Shown here piece after piece: positions 1,870-62,621 of a stretch of DNA of 64,000 nucleotides. A program made the position numbers and the translations under genes. The stretch is taken from positions 186,001 to 250,000 of the forward strand of contig NZ_LGUI01000001.1 in assembly GCF_002891295.1 (NCBI RefSeq). Direction: 5' to 3'. The stretch is from Streptomyces eurocidicus (GTDB taxonomy: Bacteria; Actinomycetota; Actinomycetes; Streptomycetales; Streptomycetaceae). The notes under the pieces were generated by a model, which worked only from the letters and a program-made list of their open reading frames with translations, did no database searches and was not told the DNA's origin. Within the stretch, counting starts at the first letter, position 1. The number at the start of each line of letters is the position of its first letter.

Positions 1870-2930
1870 TTGATGGCCAGCCATCCCGCGTAGAAGATTC
1901 CGAGTCCGACGGCGACGCACAGGCCCTGGATGATCCAGAACCGGACCACCACAAGGACCTCGCTCCACCCCTTGAGTTCGAAGTGGTGCTGGAGCGGAGC
2001 CATCCGGAAGACCCGCTTACCGGTGAGGCGGAAGGAGCCGACCTGGATCACCACGGACATGGTGATCAGGACGAACAGACCGCCGAGGAGGGCGAGCAGC
2101 ATCTCCGTGCGGGAGCAGATCGCCAGGCCCGCGAGGGCGCCGCCGAGGGCGAGCGAGCCGGTGTCGCCCATGAAGATCTTGGCGGGCGAGGTGTTCCACC
2201 ACAGGAAGCCGAAGCAGGAGCCCATCAGCGCCGAGGCGACGACCGCGAGGTCGAGCGGGTCGCGGACCTCGTAGCAGGCGGCGCCGGCGGTCAGCGGGTT
2301 GCCGCAGGACTGGCCGTGCTGCCAGGTGCCGATGAAGACGTAGGCGCCGAAGACCATCACGGAGGCGCCGGTGGCGAGGCCGTCGAGGCCGTCGGTGAGG
2401 TTCACGCCGTTCGACATCGCGAGGATCATGAACAGCGCCCAGACCACGAAGATCACGGGGCCGACGGACCAGCCGAAGTCCTGGGTGAAGGACAGCTTGG
2501 TGGAGGCCGGGGTCTGGCCCCGGGTGTCCGCGAACTGCAGCGCCAGCACGGCGAAGGCGATGCCGACGATCAGCTGGCCGGCCATCTTGGCCTTGGCGCG
2601 CAGGCCCAGGCTGCGCTGCTTGACGATCTTGATGTAGTCGTCGAGGAAGCCGACCAGGCCCATGCCCGCGGTCAGGAACAGCACCAGCAGACCGGAGAAG
2701 GTCGGCTCGTGGCTGGTGATGACCTTGGTCAGGGCGTAGGCGATGAGCGTGGCGAGGATGAAGGCGATGCCACCCATGGTGGGCGTGCCCTTCTTCCCCG
2801 CGTGGCCGCGCGGGCCGTCGTCGCGGATGAACTGGCCGTAGCCCTTGCGGGCCAGGAACTTGATCAGCAGCGGGGTGCCGACGAGGGTCAGGACCAGACC
2901 GATGACACCCGCGAAGAGGATCTGGTTCAT
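1866..2930 (-). CDS. mraY: Phospho-N-acetylmuramoyl-pentapeptide transferase MraY
   Basis: Integral membrane enzyme that moves phospho-MurNAc-pentapeptide to undecaprenyl phosphate, giving lipid I. 354 residues with about ten hydrophobic segments. Family signatures are visible: KKGTPTMGG near residue 46, GFLDDYIK near 115, [13 protein letters not shown] near 175 and the late motif [11 protein letters not shown] near 313. The ATG shares one base with the murF stop (TGATG) and the stop overlaps the murD start, so translation of the three is probably coupled. Confidence 0.97.
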
Positions 2931-25606: not shown

Positions 25607-25803
25607 CCGATCACTGTAGGGCGGGGGCCGGGCTTCCCCGCAGCACCGTGCGGGGAGACCTCCGACACAAGGTCATCCACCAGTACTTCGCGGACGGCCC
25701 GGCGCGGGGCCGCCGTTCCGGGTGCTCCCGGCACCCCGCCCGCCCCGGTCCGAGCGGCCTTCCGGTCGCTTCCCGGCGCGTACTAGGGTGGCCGGTGCAA
25801 GCA

Positions 25804-25895
25804 CTCGCGGGAGCCCGGACGCACCGGGCTGAGAGGGAGGCTGGACGGCCTCCGACCGTACGAACCTGATCCGGGTCATGCCGGCGAAGGGAGGG
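25804..25895 (+). ncRNA. TPP riboswitch (THI element)
   Basis: Contains the hallmark sequences GGGCTGAGAGGG (25827-25838) and GAACCTGATCCGGGTCATGC with CGGCGAAGGGAGG after it (to about 25893), preceded by CGGGAGCCC. It lies just before thiO and will lower expression when thiamine pyrophosphate is abundant. The closeness of the 3' end to the ATG (about 12 nt, with the GGGAGGGG serving as ribosome site) suggests control of translation. A TAGGGT box at 25784-25789 may be the promoter. Confidence 0.95.
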
Positions 25896-25906
25896 GCTGG
25901 ACACCC

Positions 25907-27085
25907 ATGTACGCGTCTTCCACCGCGTCGCCGGGGACGTACGACGTCCTCGTCGTCGGCGGCGGTGTCATCGGTCTGGTCACGGCGTGGCGGGCGGCCC
26001 AGCGCGGCCTGCGCACCGCGCTCGCGGACCCCGCGCCCGGCGGCGGGGCGGCGCACGTGGCGGCCGGGATGCTGGCCGCGGTGACCGAACTGCACTACGG
26101 CGAGCAGACCCTGCTCGCGCTGAACCTGGAGTCGGCCCGGCGCTATCCGGCGTTCACGGCCGAGCTGGAGGAGGCGACCGGGCGGGACACCGGGTACCGC
26201 GCGTGCGGCACCCTCGCCGTCGCCCTCGACGCCGACGACCGGGCGCACCTGCGGGAGCTGCACGCCCTCCAGCGCGCCTGCGGCCTCGACGCCGAGTGGC
26301 TGTCCGGGCGCGAGTGCCGCCGGCTGGAGCCGATGCTCGCGCCCGGCGTGCGCGGGGGTGTGCGGGTGGACGGCGACCACCAGACGGATCCGCGGCGGCT
26401 CGCCGGGGCCCTGCTCACGGCCTGCGAGCGGGCCGGGGTGAGCTTCCACCGCGCGGCGGTCATCCGGCTGCTGTGCGCGGGCGGCCGGGCCACCGGGGCC
26501 GAACTCGCGGGCGGCGAGCGGCTGTCCGCCGGTCAGACGGTGCTCGCCGCGGGCAGCCGCAGCGGCGCCCTGGCGGGCGTGCCCGAGGGCGTGCTGCCAC
26601 CGGTCCGCCCGGTGAAGGGACAGATCCTGCGGCTGCGGGTGCCCGCCGCGTACGCCCCGTTCCTCTCCCGGACCGTACGGGCCGTGGTGCGCGGCTGCCC
26701 GGTGTACCTGGTGCCGCGCGAGAACGGCGAGCTGGTCGTCGGCGCGACCACCGAGGAGCTCGGCTGGGACACCACGGTCACCGCGGGCGGGGTCTACGAA
26801 CTGCTGCGCGACGCCCATGAGCTGGTGCCCGGCATCACCGAACTGCCCCTGGTCGAGACCCTCGCCGGGCTGCGCCCCGGCTCCCCCGACAACGCCCCGC
26901 TGCTCGGCCCGACGGACCTGCCGGGGCTGCACACCGCCACCGGCCACCACCGCAACGGCGTCCTGCTCACACCGGTGACGGGCGACGTCATGGCCGAGGT
27001 GCTGACCACCGGGCGGCTGCCCGACGAGGCCCGCCCCTTCTCCCCCCGACGCTTCGCGAACGCCCCCCAGGAGCTGCCCGTATGA
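25907..27085 (+). CDS. thiO: Glycine oxidase ThiO
   Basis: FAD enzyme oxidising glycine to the imine used for the thiazole ring. 392 residues, DAO family. N-terminal VLVVGGGVIGLVTAWRAAQRG, then GGGAAHVAAGMLAAVTE, substrate-domain DGDHQTDPRRLAGALL and C-terminal LAGLRPGSPDNAPLLGPT with ATGHHRNGVLLTPVTG. First gene after the riboswitch; its stop overlaps the thiS ATG by 4 nt. Confidence 0.95.
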   Translation: MYASSTASPGTYDVLVVGGGVIGLVTAWRAAQRGLRTALADPAPGGGAAHVAAGMLAAVTELHYGEQTLLALNLESARRYPAFTAELEEATGRDTGYRACGTLAVALDADDRAHLRELHALQRACGLDAEWLSGRECRRLEPMLAPGVRGGVRVDGDHQTDPRRLAGALLTACERAGVSFHRAAVIRLLCAGGRATGAELAGGERLSAGQTVLAAGSRSGALAGVPEGVLPPVRPVKGQILRLRVPAAYAPFLSRTVRAVVRGCPVYLVPRENGELVVGATTEELGWDTTVTAGGVYELLRDAHELVPGITELPLVETLAGLRPGSPDNAPLLGPTDLPGLHTATGHHRNGVLLTPVTGDVMAEVLTTGRLPDEARPFSPRRFANAPQELPV

Positions 27086-27321: not shown

Positions 27322-28131
<810 letters not shown>

Positions 28132-58425: not shown

Positions 58426-59196
58426 ATGATCCGAAAGGCAGCGCGCCCGCGGTCCGCGACGCCCGTGGTCACCTACGCCCTCATCGGCATCTGCTGTGCC
58501 GTCTTCGTGCTCGGCCCCACCTCCGGCCTGACGGTCTGGCCCACGCCCCCGGGGGCCGAGAGCTCGGGGCCCGCGCAGCTGGCCGCGCAGAGCGCCTACT
58601 TCGCCCACTGGGGCGTGGTGCCGGAGGAGCTCTGGCACGGCCCACCGGGCGAACTGCTCACCCCGCTCACCGCTCTCTTCCTGCACGGCAACTGGCTGCA
58701 CCTGCTGGGGAACATGCTCTTCCTCCATGTGTTCGGCGCCATGGCCGAGGAGCGCATGGGCCGGGTCGCCTTCGCGCTCTTCTACCTCGCCGCCGGGGTG
58801 CTGGCACTGCTCGGCTACGCCGCCGCGCACGCCCACTCCGAGCAGACGCTCGTCGGGGCCTCCGGAGCGATCTCCGGAGTGCTCGGGGCCTTCCTCTACC
58901 TCTTCCCCCGGGCCCGGGTCACCAGCCTCTTCCCGTTCCTCTTCTTCCTGCCGCTGCGCTTCCCCGCCTGGGCCGTCCTGCTGTTCTGGTTCGTCCTGCA
59001 GTGGCTGGCCGCCCGGACGGCCGACGACCGGCCCGGAGTCGCCTATCTGGCCCATGTCGTGGGCTTCTCGCTCGGCTTCCTCTACGCATGGGCCCGGTAC
59101 AGGCGTGCGGTTAGAGTGAAAGACGCAGCCGGGCCGCACGAGGGCCCGCGCTCTCCCGGGGGGCAGCCCCCGACCCCCGAGAGGAGCCAGCCATGA
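58426..59196 (+). CDS. Rhomboid family intramembrane serine protease
   Basis: 256 residues, six or so membrane segments. Catalytic Ser in VGASGAISGVLGAFLYL, His in YLAHVVGFSLGFLYAW, and the oxyanion-side HGNWLHLLGNMLFLHVFG. The C-terminal 35 residues are polar. Substrates are unknown. The ATG at 58426 follows CATGAT by 6 nt and has no ribosome site. The stop overlaps the next start (ATGA). Confidence 0.92.
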   Translation: MIRKAARPRSATPVVTYALIGICCAVFVLGPTSGLTVWPTPPGAESSGPAQLAAQSAYFAHWGVVPEELWHGPPGELLTPLTALFLHGNWLHLLGNMLFLHVFGAMAEERMGRVAFALFYLAAGVLALLGYAAAHAHSEQTLVGASGAISGVLGAFLYLFPRARVTSLFPFLFFLPLRFPAWAVLLFWFVLQWLAARTADDRPGVAYLAHVVGFSLGFLYAWARYRRAVRVKDAAGPHEGPRSPGGQPPTPERSQP

Positions 59197-59474
59197 TCAC
59201 TTCGATCGTGCTCATCAAGACCGACGTCGACCGCATCCCGGAGATCGCCGAGCAGATCGCCGCGCTGGAGGGCGTCAGCGAGGTGTACTCCGTGACGGGC
59301 GCGCACGACCTGATCGCGATGGTGCGGGTGGCGCGGCACGACGATCTGGCGGACGTCATCCCCGGCCGCATCAGCAAGGTCCCGGGGGTGGCCTCGACGG
59401 AGACGCACATCGCGTTCCGCACGTACTCGCACCACGACCTGGAGGCGGCGTTCGCGATCGGCCTCGACGCGTAG
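59193..59474 (+). CDS. Lrp/AsnC ligand-binding domain protein
   Basis: 93 residues containing only the RAM (ligand-binding) domain of Lrp/AsnC regulators (SIVLIKTDVDRIPEIAEQIA, VTGAHDLIAMVRV, TETHIAFRTYS) and no HTH. Such stand-alone domains form oligomers that may bind amino acids. It overlaps the rhomboid gene by 4 nt with a GAGAGGAG site upstream. Confidence 0.92.
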   Translation: MITSIVLIKTDVDRIPEIAEQIAALEGVSEVYSVTGAHDLIAMVRVARHDDLADVIPGRISKVPGVASTETHIAFRTYSHHDLEAAFAIGLDA

Positions 59475-59677: not shown

Positions 59678-61033
59678 CTACGCGGGCACGCACCGCCCGC
59701 CCACCGTCCGGTACGACCACCGCGCCCCGTCCCGCACCAGCCCCCGCACCGCGGACACGAACCGCGTCACATGCTCGTCCGGCGTCCCCGCCCCGAAGCT
59801 CACCCGGATCGCGTTCAGGTTCCCCCCGTCAGGGGCCCCGCACTCGCCCGGGGCGTCCGGGGTGCCGCCGAGCAGCAGGCGTACGAGCGGGTGCGCGCAG
59901 AAGAGGCCGTCGCGGACGCCGATGCCGTACTCCGCGGAGAGGGCCGCCGCGAAGTGCGAGCTGTTCCAGCCGTCCACGGTGAAGGCGAGCACGCCGACCC
60001 TCGGGGCGTCGTCGCCGAACAGCGAGAGCACCCGGACCTCCGGCACCTCGGCGAGGCCCGCCCGGACGGTCTCGATGAGCCGCCGCTCGCGCTCCACGAG
60101 CCCCTCGAAGCCCGCCTCGGTGAGCGCCTTGCAGGCCGAGGCGATGGCGTAGGCGCCGATGACGTTGGGCGAGCCCGCCTCGTGCCGGGCGGCGGTCGCG
60201 TGCCAGTCGACGGCGACCCCGCCGGCCGCGTCCCGCGTCACCTGGCGGGTCGCGCCGCCGCCCGCCAGGTAGGGCGCCGCGTCCTGGAGCCAGTCCGGGC
60301 GGCCGGCGAGCACCCCGGCGCCGAACGGCGCGTACAGCTTGTGCCCGGAGAAGGCGATCCAGTCGGCGTCCAGCTCCGTGACGTCCACGGGGTGGTGCGG
60401 GGCGAGCTGCGCGGCGTCCAGCACGATCCGGGCGCCGTGGGCGTGCGCGGCCGCCGCCAGCTCCCGTACGGGCCACAGCTCGCCCGTCACGTTCGACGCG
60501 GCCGTCACGCAGACCAGCGCGGGGCCGTAGGGCTCCCGGTCGGCGAGGGCCCGCTCCAGGGTCTCGACGGCCTCGCGGGGCGAGCGGGGCGCGTCGAGGT
60601 AGGTGACCGTGACGTCCGCGCGCCGCTCCCAGGGCAGCAGCGCCGCGTGGTGCTCGGTCTCGAAGACGAACACCCGGCAGCCGGCCGGGACCGCGGCCGC
60701 GAGGAGGTTGAGGGAGTCGGTGGTCGAGCGGGTGAAGACGACCTGGTCGTCCGGGCGGCAGCCGAGGAAGGCGGCGACCTCGGCGCGGCTGTTCTCGAAC
60801 AGGTCGGTGGACAGCTGGGAGAGGTACCCGGCGCCGCGGTGGACGCTGCCGTAGTAGGGCGCGTACGCCGCCACGTCGTCCCAGACCCGCTGGAGCGCGG
60901 GGGCGCTGGCCGCGTAGTCGAGGGCCGCGTAGGTCACCTCGCCGCCGGTCACCAGCGGCACCCGGACGTCCCGCCCGAGAACGGGCAGAGGGGGGCAAAC
61001 CGATCGGTCGGCGGCAAGGGTGGGTACGGACAT
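59678..61033 (-). CDS. Class V PLP-dependent aminotransferase / cysteine desulfurase-like
   Basis: 451 residues. YAALDYAASAPALQRVWDDV at the start, SVHRGAGYLSQLSTDLFENSR, TRSTTDSLNLLA, ETEHHAALLPW, VLDAAQLAPHHPVDV and the PLP lysine in AFSGHKLYAPFGAGVL. The fold is that of cysteine desulfurases and selenocysteine lyases, but the usual Cys loop could not be identified with certainty. A SAM-IV riboswitch upstream ties it to sulfur or methionine metabolism. ATG with a GGGAG site. Confidence 0.9.
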   Translation of the reverse strand: MSVPTLAADRSVCPPLPVLGRDVRVPLVTGGEVTYAALDYAASAPALQRVWDDVAAYAPYYGSVHRGAGYLSQLSTDLFENSRAEVAAFLGCRPDDQVVFTRSTTDSLNLLAAAVPAGCRVFVFETEHHAALLPWERRADVTVTYLDAPRSPREAVETLERALADREPYGPALVCVTAASNVTGELWPVRELAAAAHAHGARIVLDAAQLAPHHPVDVTELDADWIAFSGHKLYAPFGAGVLAGRPDWLQDAAPYLAGGGATRQVTRDAAGGVAVDWHATAARHEAGSPNVIGAYAIASACKALTEAGFEGLVERERRLIETVRAGLAEVPEVRVLSLFGDDAPRVGVLAFTVDGWNSSHFAAALSAEYGIGVRDGLFCAHPLVRLLLGGTPDAPGECGAPDGGNLNAIRVSFGAGTPDEHVTRFVSAVRGLVRDGARWSYRTVGGRCVPA

Positions 61034-61228
61034 GGCGAACTCCCGTGGGAAGGCAGGCGAATTCCGCCGCGTGACGAGCGCGGGGGAACTGAAAAGGCGC
61101 GAAGGGCGCGTAACGACGCGAGAAGGCGCGTCAGAAAACGGGAAAAGGGGCCCGCGGAGCCCTGGAAAAAGGGCTCGCAGTGCCCTAACGCATTCGCTGA
61201 ACCACGGAAGGAACTCCCTCGGCAACCA

Positions 61229-61248
61229 GGATCCCTGGCGAGGGATCC
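61229..61248 (-). promoter_or_regulatory. Hairpin downstream of the SAM-IV aptamer
   Basis: 8-bp perfect stem GGATCCCT / AGGGATCC with a 4-nt loop, about 30 nt after the aptamer. It is not followed by a T run, so it may be a structural part of the switch instead of a classical terminator. Confidence 0.4.
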
Positions 61249-61278
61249 GCGCTTGCCGCAGACCTCTGTGCCTGCGAC

Positions 61279-61361
61279 CCGGTCATCACCCGGGGCACCC
61301 CGCCGCAGAAGGAGGGTTGCCGGACAGCGGGCCGGGGCCGTGTCGCTGTCACTCGTGACCT
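61279..61361 (-). ncRNA. SAM-IV riboswitch
   Basis: Reading the minus strand, GGTCACGAGTGACAGCGACA, GGCCCCGGCCCGCTG, TCCGGCAACCCTCC, then GCGGCGGGGTGCCCCGGGTG and ATGACC follow in the order of the SAM-IV aptamer known from actinobacteria; the ends GGTCA and TGACC can pair. It lies about 245 nt upstream of the class V aminotransferase gene, which it should switch off when S-adenosylmethionine is plentiful. Confidence 0.9.
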
Positions 61362-61398
61362 GGCGAGGAGTATGGCACAACTGATCGTCGCGCGAAAA

Positions 61399-61423
61399 GG
61401 GGCGTCCGTATCACGGACGCCCC
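61399..61423. terminator. Terminator downstream of trpD
   Basis: 11-bp stem (61399-61409 with 61413-61423), loop ATC, followed on the minus strand by CTTTTCGCGC. It lies 18 nt after the trpD stop. Confidence 0.85.
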
Positions 61424-61440: not shown

Positions 61441-62505
61441 TCAGGCGTTGCTGGCCTCGACCCAGCGGTCGAGGGCGCCCTTCGCCGCCCCGGAGTCCAG
61501 CGACTCCGCGGCCCGCGCGATCCCCCGGGCGACCTGCTCCGTGAGCGGCGCGTCCGTCGGGTCCAGGGCGACCAGCGCGGCCGCCGCGTTCAGCAGCACC
61601 GCGTCCCGTACGGGCCCGGTGGCGCCGTCCAGCAGCCGGCGGGCGACATCGGCGTTGTACGAGGCGTCGGCGCCGCGCAGCGCCTCCACGGGCACCAGCG
61701 GGATGCCCACGTCCCGGGGGTCGAAGGGCTCCTCGCGGACCTCGCCGGCCCGGACCACCCAGACCCGGGAGGTCGCGGTCGTGGTCAGCTCGTCCAGCCC
61801 GTCGTCCCCGCGGAAGACCAGCGCGGAGGAGCCGCGTTCGGCGAGGACGCCGGCCAGGATCGGGGCCATCCGCGCGTCGGCGACCCCGGTGGCCTGGGCC
61901 CGCACCCGGGCGGGGTTGGTCAGCGGGCCGAGCACGTTGAAGGTGGTCCGGATGCCCAGCTCCCGGCGCGCGGGGGCGACATGGCGCAGCGAGGGGTGGA
62001 ACTTCACGGCGAAGCAGAAGGTGATGCCCGCCTCCTCGGCCACCTCGACCACGCGGCGTGGCGTCAGGTCCAGATTGACGCCGAGCTTCTCCAGGACGTC
62101 CGAGGCGCCGCTGGCGGAGGACGCGGCGCGGTTGCCGTGCTTGACGACCTTGGCTCCGGTGCCGGCGACGACGATCGAGGACATGGTGGAGATGTTGACG
62201 GTCTTGGCGCCGTCGCCGCCGGTGCCCACGATGTCCACGCTGGGGCCGGGCACCTCGATGAGGTTGGCGTGCGCGTACATGGTGCGGACGAGGCCGGAGA
62301 TCTCGGCGACGGTCTCGCCCTTGGCGCGCAGCGCGACCGCGAAGCCGGCGATCTGGGCGTCGGTGGCCTCGCCGCGCATGATCCGGTCCATGGCCCAGGC
62401 GGTGTCGTCCGCGCTCAGGTCCACGCCGCCGAGCAGGGCCTCCAGGAGACCCGGCCAGGAGGGAGCCACCGCGCTGTCGCCGCCTGCCGGGGTCACAACG
62501 TTCAT
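61441..62505 (-). CDS. trpD: Anthranilate phosphoribosyltransferase
   Basis: Transfers phosphoribosyl to anthranilate, second step of the tryptophan branch. 354 residues. Motifs: [20 protein letters not shown] (PRPP binding), [40 protein letters not shown], and [14 protein letters not shown] at 62505 with AGGAG 7-8 nt upstream. It lies 26 kb from trpEG and no Trp leader was seen in front of it. Confidence 0.96.
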
Positions 62506-62590
62506 GGTCCACGCTCCTGGTGGTCGGACTGCGAGCCGCCGCCGTCCGGGGCTCTGCCGGCTCCAGCCTATCCAGCCCCGGGAACGGCGA

Positions 62591-62621
62591 AGAGCCCCGT
62601 CCACGCGCTGGACGGGGCTCT
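62591..62621. terminator. Terminator downstream of qcrB
   Basis: 13-bp perfect stem (62591-62603 with 62609-62621) and a 5-nt loop, 50 nt past the qcrB stop and upstream of trpD. Confidence 0.85.

Follow-up and report, generated by a model that had tools for sequence, protein, structure and literature searches.

A six-codon open reading frame between the SAM-IV riboswitch and the gene of a SufS-like cysteine desulfurase homologue in Streptomyces

Layout of the locus

We analysed a stretch of 64,000 nucleotides of the Streptomyces eurocidicus genome (contig NZ_LGUI01000001.1, positions 186,001 to 250,000; hereafter the window, whose own coordinates are used below), and in particular the leader that connects a riboswitch of the SAM-IV family, predicted to sense S-adenosylmethionine (SAM), to the gene of a class V pyridoxal phosphate (PLP) enzyme. 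Rfam cmscan matched the SAM-IV family RF00634 at 61360–61244 on the minus strand, over the full model (1–116) and with 110.5 bits against a gathering cut-off of 38 (E = 1.6e-19). The riboswitch had been proposed by a first-pass annotation made from the sequence letters, as had its position in front of a class V gene, and both proposals held: the open reading frame (ORF) downstream on the same strand belongs to PF00266. This ORF could extend over 59678–61225; with the ATG at 61033, as in relatives, it encodes 451 amino acids (59678..61033, minus strand). The first aptamer base lies 327 nt from this ATG, near the earlier estimate of about 350 nt. The aptamer (61244..61360) is the only place in the genome above the SAM-IV cut-off; a SAM-I element occurs on another contig.

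Between aptamer and enzyme gene, all on the minus strand, lie several short elements. The P1 3′ strand (GACC) with three further nucleotides (61278..61284) could partner either the aptamer 5′ end or 61230–61224. A platform hairpin (61229..61248; arms 61248–61241 and 61236–61229), recognized from paired cells in 44 aligned leaders, is followed by the putative anti-P1 strand CCTGGTT (61224..61230), which is complementary to the P1 strand when G-U pairs are counted. Next come a Shine-Dalgarno stretch, GAGGGAG (61214..61220), able to pair with the platform 5′ arm, and a six-codon upstream ORF (uORF), GTG GTT CAG CGA ATG CGT TAG (M-V-Q-R-M-R-stop; 61185..61205). A short GC hairpin of four pairs starts on the last base of the uORF stop (61171..61185) and is followed by TTTTT, a predicted terminator or pause site. 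The "extra hairpins" of the first-pass annotation thus correspond to the platform hairpin and this small post-stop hairpin. The predicted Shine-Dalgarno region of the enzyme gene, CACGGGAG, occupies 61040..61047.

The leader was compared with those of relatives in a first set of 80, namely the window and 79 relatives, one of which (L062) is Streptosporangium and the others Streptomyces; L067 was left out because its flank was shorter than the fixed interval taken. A hexamer of the form [TC]ANNNT starts 12–15 nt ahead of the aptamer in this set (82 occurrences in 80 leaders), and marks a predicted promoter with the −10-like CATACT at 61369..61374 in the window; an E. coli-type promoter scan of the leader gave no match. 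The gene upstream is trpD (61441–62604, minus strand), present on the same strand in 79 of the 80 loci. Both the recurrence of the −10-like hexamer in relatives and the same-strand trpD gene upstream make it probable that the leader is transcribed on its own. Behind trpD, sequence reading reveals a terminator-like perfect inverted repeat followed by TTTT (61399..61423, minus strand), which is not listed by a terminator scan that demands five T in eight bases. Tail to tail with the enzyme gene, at 59193–59474 on the plus strand, lies a stand-alone Lrp/AsnC ligand-binding domain of 93 amino acids in which the DNA-binding part was not seen.

The enzyme

The enzyme matched Aminotransferase class V (PF00266) with 256.3 bits against a gathering score of 21.5, and NCBIfam placed it nearest SufS (TIGR01979), with 253.2 bits against a curated cut-off of 475.1. 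Among the 7998 candidates sharing most words, a Streptomyces sp. protein is 96% identical to it, and in the PDB the nearest matches by sequence are SufS-type cysteine desulfurases like that of E. coli. The AlphaFold structure prediction (mean pLDDT, the predicted local distance difference test score, of 76.5; weak at residues 1–19, 63–71, 256–260 and 398–403) returned solely cysteine desulfurases and selenocysteine lyases among the 50 fold matches listed. We aligned 189 sequences (the window enzyme, 105 streptomycete and 83 other proteins; 188 of 228 relatives remained after incomplete and duplicate entries were dropped), and Lys232, His128, His129, Arg283, Phe378, Cys379, Ala380 and His381 were invariant in all of them. 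As in group II desulfurases, a PLP lysine (Lys232) is accompanied by a catalytic cysteine (Cys379) in an R-x-G-x-x-C loop that aligns with the Cys loop of E. coli SufS. In SufU-dependent SufS, the His preceding the catalytic Cys swaps a Zn ligand; here that position is Phe378 in 189/189 sequences, and E. coli SufS has His there. Cysteine desulfurase chemistry is therefore predicted, since the nearest structures and folds are cysteine desulfurases and the active-site residues are invariant, and the enzyme is best described as a SufS-like cysteine desulfurase homologue with an intact active site and a distinct F-C-A-H loop. The "unknown substrate" of the first-pass annotation was accordingly too weak a statement, because fold and active site point to cysteine.

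The genome encodes five weaker paralogues, all scored as matched stretches: two exceed the SufS cut-off, a third has its best match in an encapsulin-cargo cysteine desulfurase, a fourth in NifS, and the fifth is weak. The paralogue at G000:C13:154005-155048 (L004) has family 2A encapsulin cargo cysteine desulfurase as its best NCBIfam match, with 562/800 bits for the matched stretch only. A cystathionine gamma-synthase and an O-acetylhomoserine sulfhydrylase-type protein are also encoded, both above cut-offs. An operon partner that would name the pathway of the enzyme was sought and rejected; with ORFs overlapping the enzyme excluded, the commonest neighbour cluster occurred at 14 of 60 loci, at scattered distances and on both strands.

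SAM-IV riboswitches precede the enzyme and methionine genes

A class sample, evenly drawn, comprised 296 genomes, in which the enzyme was called at an E value of 1e-70 or better; it is encoded in 110 of the 296 genomes and 39 of the 114 genera. SAM-IV lies upstream in 104 of these 110 genomes, comprising 77 (window genome included) with a listed place at most 700 nt upstream on the same strand and 27 later confirmed by Rfam. Six homologues (L253–L258) had no SAM-IV upstream, four of them from one family (f36), and G277, a genome from the window's own genus, lacked both enzyme and SAM-IV at the thresholds used. Loose aptamer patterns gave many false sites, and the census was redone on Rfam places. 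These number at least 150, the best-scoring part of the matches after filters that lose weak ones, and 149 were mapped to loci. Among these 149 listed places, 76 stand before the enzyme and 53 before a MetY/MetZ ORF; the others precede MetX-like ORFs (7), MetK (1), solute-binding proteins (5) and ORFs without a firm label (7). NCBIfam/Pfam verified representatives, namely MetY, two of the seven MetX-like ORFs, MetK and one of the five solute-binding proteins; the rest were labelled by eye or cluster. Per genome (n = 134), 66 have the element before the enzyme only, 42 before MetY/MetZ only, 11 before both and 15 before neither.

These distributions support a link between the enzyme and SAM or methionine supply, which the first-pass annotation had put forward: the riboswitch accompanies the enzyme nearly throughout, and most other mapped SAM-IV genes are methionine genes. 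For Vibrionales, which belong to a different phylum, the methionine repressor MetJ is predicted to target a cysteine desulfurase (PMC4239095). The pairing of enzyme and rhodanese suggests persulfide transfer, as both lie behind SAM-IV in G031 and G107; in G107 the order is SAM-IV, rhodanese-domain ORF and MetZ (NCBIfam/Pfam), and in G031 a rhodanese ORF takes the same place.

Two observations concern individual SAM-IV loci. The element lies directly before a rhodanese-domain ORF at L202 (2095–2508, minus strand; MetZ follows) and L225 (651–1064, plus strand), and the desulfurase of these genomes is also behind SAM-IV. L243 carries a divergent SAM-IV pair (1956–2073, minus strand; 2175–2291, plus strand), of which one serves the desulfurase; behind the other lies a leader-like ORF with Cys, ending RRHVDLVRVASCTCR, as seen in L224.

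The enzyme could instead have another main task, such as supplying sulfur to iron–sulfur clusters or thionucleosides, selenocysteine lyase activity or a different PLP reaction, with SAM merely signalling demand. The closest solved structures, SufS and selenocysteine lyase, would fit such a role, and the annotators of S. lividans assigned "thiamine metabolism" (PMC8079986). We regard this as rather improbable, since two further proteins of the genome exceed the SufS cut-off and others match encapsulin-cargo desulfurase and NifS best (matched stretches), the other labelled SAM-IV genes among the places listed concern methionine, SAM or amino-acid transport, and the E. coli SufS His before the catalytic Cys is replaced by Phe378 throughout the alignment.

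A conserved six-codon uORF in streptomycete leaders

The less expected part of the locus, which the first-pass annotation overlooked, is the uORF. Behind the aptamer, all 80 leaders contain a start codon (GTG or ATG), then two codons that vary, the pair CGA ATG, a sixth codon and the stop TAG. With 25 same-genus class genomes added, the uORF is present in 104 of 104 distinct streptomycete leaders, mostly as M-x-x-R-M-R-stop and once with a TTG start. The pattern occurs 0.0002 times per shuffled leader, never on the reverse strand, and at one exact site in the window genome. A Shine-Dalgarno stretch precedes it. Codon 6 keeps its first two bases (C in 103 and G in 102 of 104) and varies at the third (A 54, C 27, T 23), the pattern expected of a coding sequence. 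No base of codons 4 and 5 (CGA ATG) varies in any of the 104 leaders, which is uninformative on coding.

With start sites called by a Shine-Dalgarno rule, the uORF begins 12–61 nt after the aptamer at all 25 same-genus class-sample sites, where the enzyme start follows only at 101–293 nt; in other genera, the enzyme's own start lies 16–69 nt after the aptamer at 50 of 51 sites. The uORF thus occupies the place where other genera start the enzyme itself. At five of the 51 other-genus sites (G118, G267, G197, G266 and G131), a short ORF unlike the uORF also stands ahead of the start. The final base of the uORF stop codon opens a GC hairpin, which has at least four pairs in 77 of 80 leaders, compared to 20% of shuffles. 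We consider the uORF of streptomycete SAM-IV leaders a new element, with translation predicted from its conservation and placement.

These same features bear on whether the CGAATGCGNTAGGGC block is a gene at all, rather than a part of an RNA expression platform, with SAM-IV controlling a terminator or the enzyme start directly. The invariance of CGA ATG, silent positions included, and the hairpin on the stop codon would both be at home in such a platform. Less readily explained by it are the constant length of 21 nt, the Shine-Dalgarno stretch ahead and the silent variation at codon 6, together with a placement where other genera start the gene, the distance of the enzyme start at the 25 same-genus sites, and the different, mostly Cys-containing uORFs found there in 17 of 53 MetY/MetZ leaders (below). 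On balance, a purely structural block seems somewhat unlikely, and a translated uORF is preferred.

Predicted leader peptides at MetY/MetZ sites

Among the 53 MetY/MetZ SAM-IV sites, 17 have a uORF in the corresponding place (L009, L011, L013, L015, L021, L164, L172, L182, L183, L185, L187, L190, L195, L199, L215, L227 and L311), 26 start the gene there and 10 do neither. Fifteen of the 17 uORFs contain Cys and eight contain Arg-Met, as in M-T-C-R-M-R-R and M-C-C-C-R-M-N; in G177, the start picked lies 14 nt before that of the Cys-rich MCCCCRMTRR. Cys makes up 26 of the 137 residues, compared to 0.2% in MetY ORFs. An out-of-frame control (26, 21 and 7 Cys codons, by frame) is uninformative, because an ATG followed by T yields TGT when read one frame on; the Cys enrichment is accordingly judged against MetY ORFs alone. 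At those MetY/MetZ leaders, SAM sensing appears to be combined with Cys leader peptides. No Cys codon occurs in the uORFs of the 80 streptomycete leaders or the 25 same-genus class sites, which do not resemble Cys-codon attenuators in this respect, and we infer that the streptomycete peptide may be a Cys-less form of the MetY/MetZ uORFs.

Another option is that the uORF is a second sensor, on which scarcity of charged tRNA would make the ribosome stall at the Met or Arg codon, so that the leader reads SAM together with methionine (or arginine). In favour of it, an in-frame Met codon is present in 104/104 leaders, two codons ahead of the stop, Cys is frequent in the MetY/MetZ uORFs, and the leader peptide of S. 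lividans metNIQ has CMCRRMCAF at its end (PMC8079986). A single Met codon is nevertheless weak beside attenuators with runs, and the streptomycete uORF offers no Cys codon; we judge this role unlikely.

Possible coupling of the aptamer to the uORF

The platform hairpin has 96.6% of cells paired in 44 leaders, compared to 22–72% when the arms are slid, with 13 two-sided changes at one pair; this alignment holds 44 of the 69 available sequences (68 distinct and the window's own; the pattern that collected them missed L074, L077, L096 and L099, which also carry the uORF). In 70 of 80 leaders the CCTGGTY strand is complementary to the P1 strand GACCRGG over seven or more consecutive pairs, counting G-U (shuffles, 1.75%); six or more consecutive pairs are possible between the uORF Shine-Dalgarno stretch and the platform 5′ arm in 48 of the 80 leaders (shuffles, 7.9%). 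Constrained folding compared P1 enforced, with five pseudoknot bases unpaired, to the P1 5′ strand barred from pairing. The unpaired probability of the uORF Shine-Dalgarno was 0.14 with P1 forced and 0.25 with P1 forbidden, and 63 of 80 leaders changed in that direction; shuffled spacers gave 0.29 and 0.23, respectively, with 37% of 240 in that direction. A different switch, in which downstream GGTTGCCG pairs with the aptamer core CGGCAACC, was rejected: the pairing is perfect in the window genome, yet GGTTGCC is absent in the 79 relatives.

Premature termination offers a plausible route from the uORF to the enzyme gene. In S. clavuligerus, a SAM-IV leader before a class V PLP gene, presumably the orthologue of the window enzyme, yields a premature transcript with a ratio among the most extreme of that study (PMC8269248). 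Our preferred model is that uORF translation gates premature termination, whether intrinsic or by Rho; re-initiation is less favoured, as the uORF stop and the gene are far apart and the gene has a Shine-Dalgarno-like site of its own.

Proposed mechanism

We propose, with a probability of roughly 0.5, that the SAM-IV aptamer acts via the ribosome site of the uORF, and that uORF translation permits transcription of the gene for an enzyme predicted to move sulfur from cysteine towards homocysteine and methionine. Four elements of the model, namely the aptamer, the uORF and the platform and post-stop hairpins, are found in streptomycetes and are conserved there. As complementarity and constrained folding suggest, SAM binding would close P1, leave CCTGGTY free and allow the uORF Shine-Dalgarno stretch to pair with the platform 5′ arm. 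Without SAM, CCTGGTY would instead pair with the P1 3′ strand, the platform hairpin would form alone and the uORF could be translated. A ribosome at the end of the uORF may then cover the stop-codon hairpin and block intrinsic or Rho-dependent premature termination. When SAM is low, the enzyme would, judging from its active site and regulon, move cysteine sulfur towards homocysteine synthesis; the earlier suggestion that it releases sulfur when SAM is short is consistent with this predicted chemistry.

Several observations weigh against this proposal. The fixed CGA ATG may reflect an RNA role of the block, and 26 of the 53 MetY/MetZ sites start their gene at the place of the uORF. The folding effect is modest, runs in the opposite direction in 17 of 80 leaders and comes from related sequences. 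It also does not generalise: the same folding of enzyme and MetY sites in other genera showed no such effect, with fractions more open when free of 0.40 (n = 40), 0.59 (n = 17) and 0.28 (n = 18). Ten of the 80 leaders have fewer than seven anti-P1 pairs, and L055, L058 and L080 have neither platform hairpin nor anti-P1 strand while keeping aptamer and uORF, which the switch model leaves unexplained. Given the missing effect in other genera and these three leaders, closure of the uORF by SAM is predicted solely for Streptomyces. The hairpin on the stop codon is short, at least four T occur within the ten bases behind it in only 20 of 77 leaders, and a consensus terminator scan of the leader, whose stem limit the hairpin does not reach, found none. 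Finally, the enzyme scores far under the SufS cut-off, at 253 against 475 bits, and no recurrent operon partner stands near it.

A more far-reaching version, which we offer only tentatively, regards the six-codon peptide as the cistron under SAM-IV control in Streptomyces. A translational riboswitch would thereby have become a transcription attenuator, responsive to SAM and, via the invariant Arg-Met codons, to charged tRNA; the peptide would be a Cys-less relative of the Cys-Arg-Met leaders that follow SAM-IV in other members of the class, and the leader would drive a dedicated methionine-pathway desulfurase that feeds homocysteine synthase directly or via rhodanese.

If the proposal holds, SAM sensing, leader-peptide translation and premature termination are joined in one leader. 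It would define a cysteine desulfurase serving methionine rather than iron–sulfur clusters, and explain why, of the mapped SAM-IV places listed, more stand before the enzyme gene than before any other (76/149). The Cys uORFs behind SAM-IV at some MetY/MetZ genes further suggest that, in actinobacteria, methionine genes can respond jointly to SAM and to a second amino-acid signal.

Elsewhere in the window, a thiamine pyrophosphate riboswitch (25797–25909, plus strand; 63.1 bits) precedes a thiO-like ORF (25907–27085) and a thiG-like ORF (27331–28131), both named by eye, in an ordinary thiamine operon.

Relation to known systems

SAM-IV regulates metXY in Actinomycetales (PMC4239095), and the present element resembles its family RF00634 in its full covariance match and its place before methionine-linked genes; it differs in that the nearest Shine-Dalgarno-bearing start behind the aptamer is that of the six-codon uORF, not that of the gene. 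The pairing of SAM-IV with a cysteine desulfurase or class V PLP gene is already in print for S. lividans SLIV_26975 (PMC8079986) and S. clavuligerus CRV15_21540 (PMC8269248), which the first-pass annotation had also overlooked; its aptamer and its link to SAM and methionine stand, and its "unassigned" chemistry does not. The riboswitch–gene pair is of the same kind in both species, and the parts seen mention no uORF for that leader, nor does the portion consulted of the S. lividans leader-peptide table. In the literature searched, with its partial coverage, we found no report of a uORF behind SAM-IV.

Closest in logic is ppe2 of M. tuberculosis, where a B12 riboswitch controls a translated uORF needed for downstream expression (PMC11260477). 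The likeness lies in a riboswitch controlling a leader ORF, whose translation is predicted here. The systems differ in ligand and aptamer and in the termination–reinitiation of ppe2, whereas here the uORF stop is far from the gene start and the gene seemingly has its own Shine-Dalgarno site. A genus-wide riboswitch acting on a mini-ORF and not on its own gene would, in the print record consulted, have been met only for the B12 switches of M. tuberculosis. Actinobacterial cysteine leader peptides, short Cys-codon uORFs before sulfur genes (PMC1262725; Canestrari 2020 via PMC13236596), resemble the Cys uORFs at the MetY/MetZ SAM-IV sites; unlike them, the uORFs described here follow a SAM-IV aptamer, and the streptomycete uORF is without a Cys codon. 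The enzyme, in turn, shares with the SufS family TIGR01979 its fold, PLP lysine, catalytic Cys and the surrounding His and Arg residues, and is set apart by F-C-A-H in place of H-H-C-A, by its lower family score, by its position behind SAM-IV and by its lack of recurrent neighbours.

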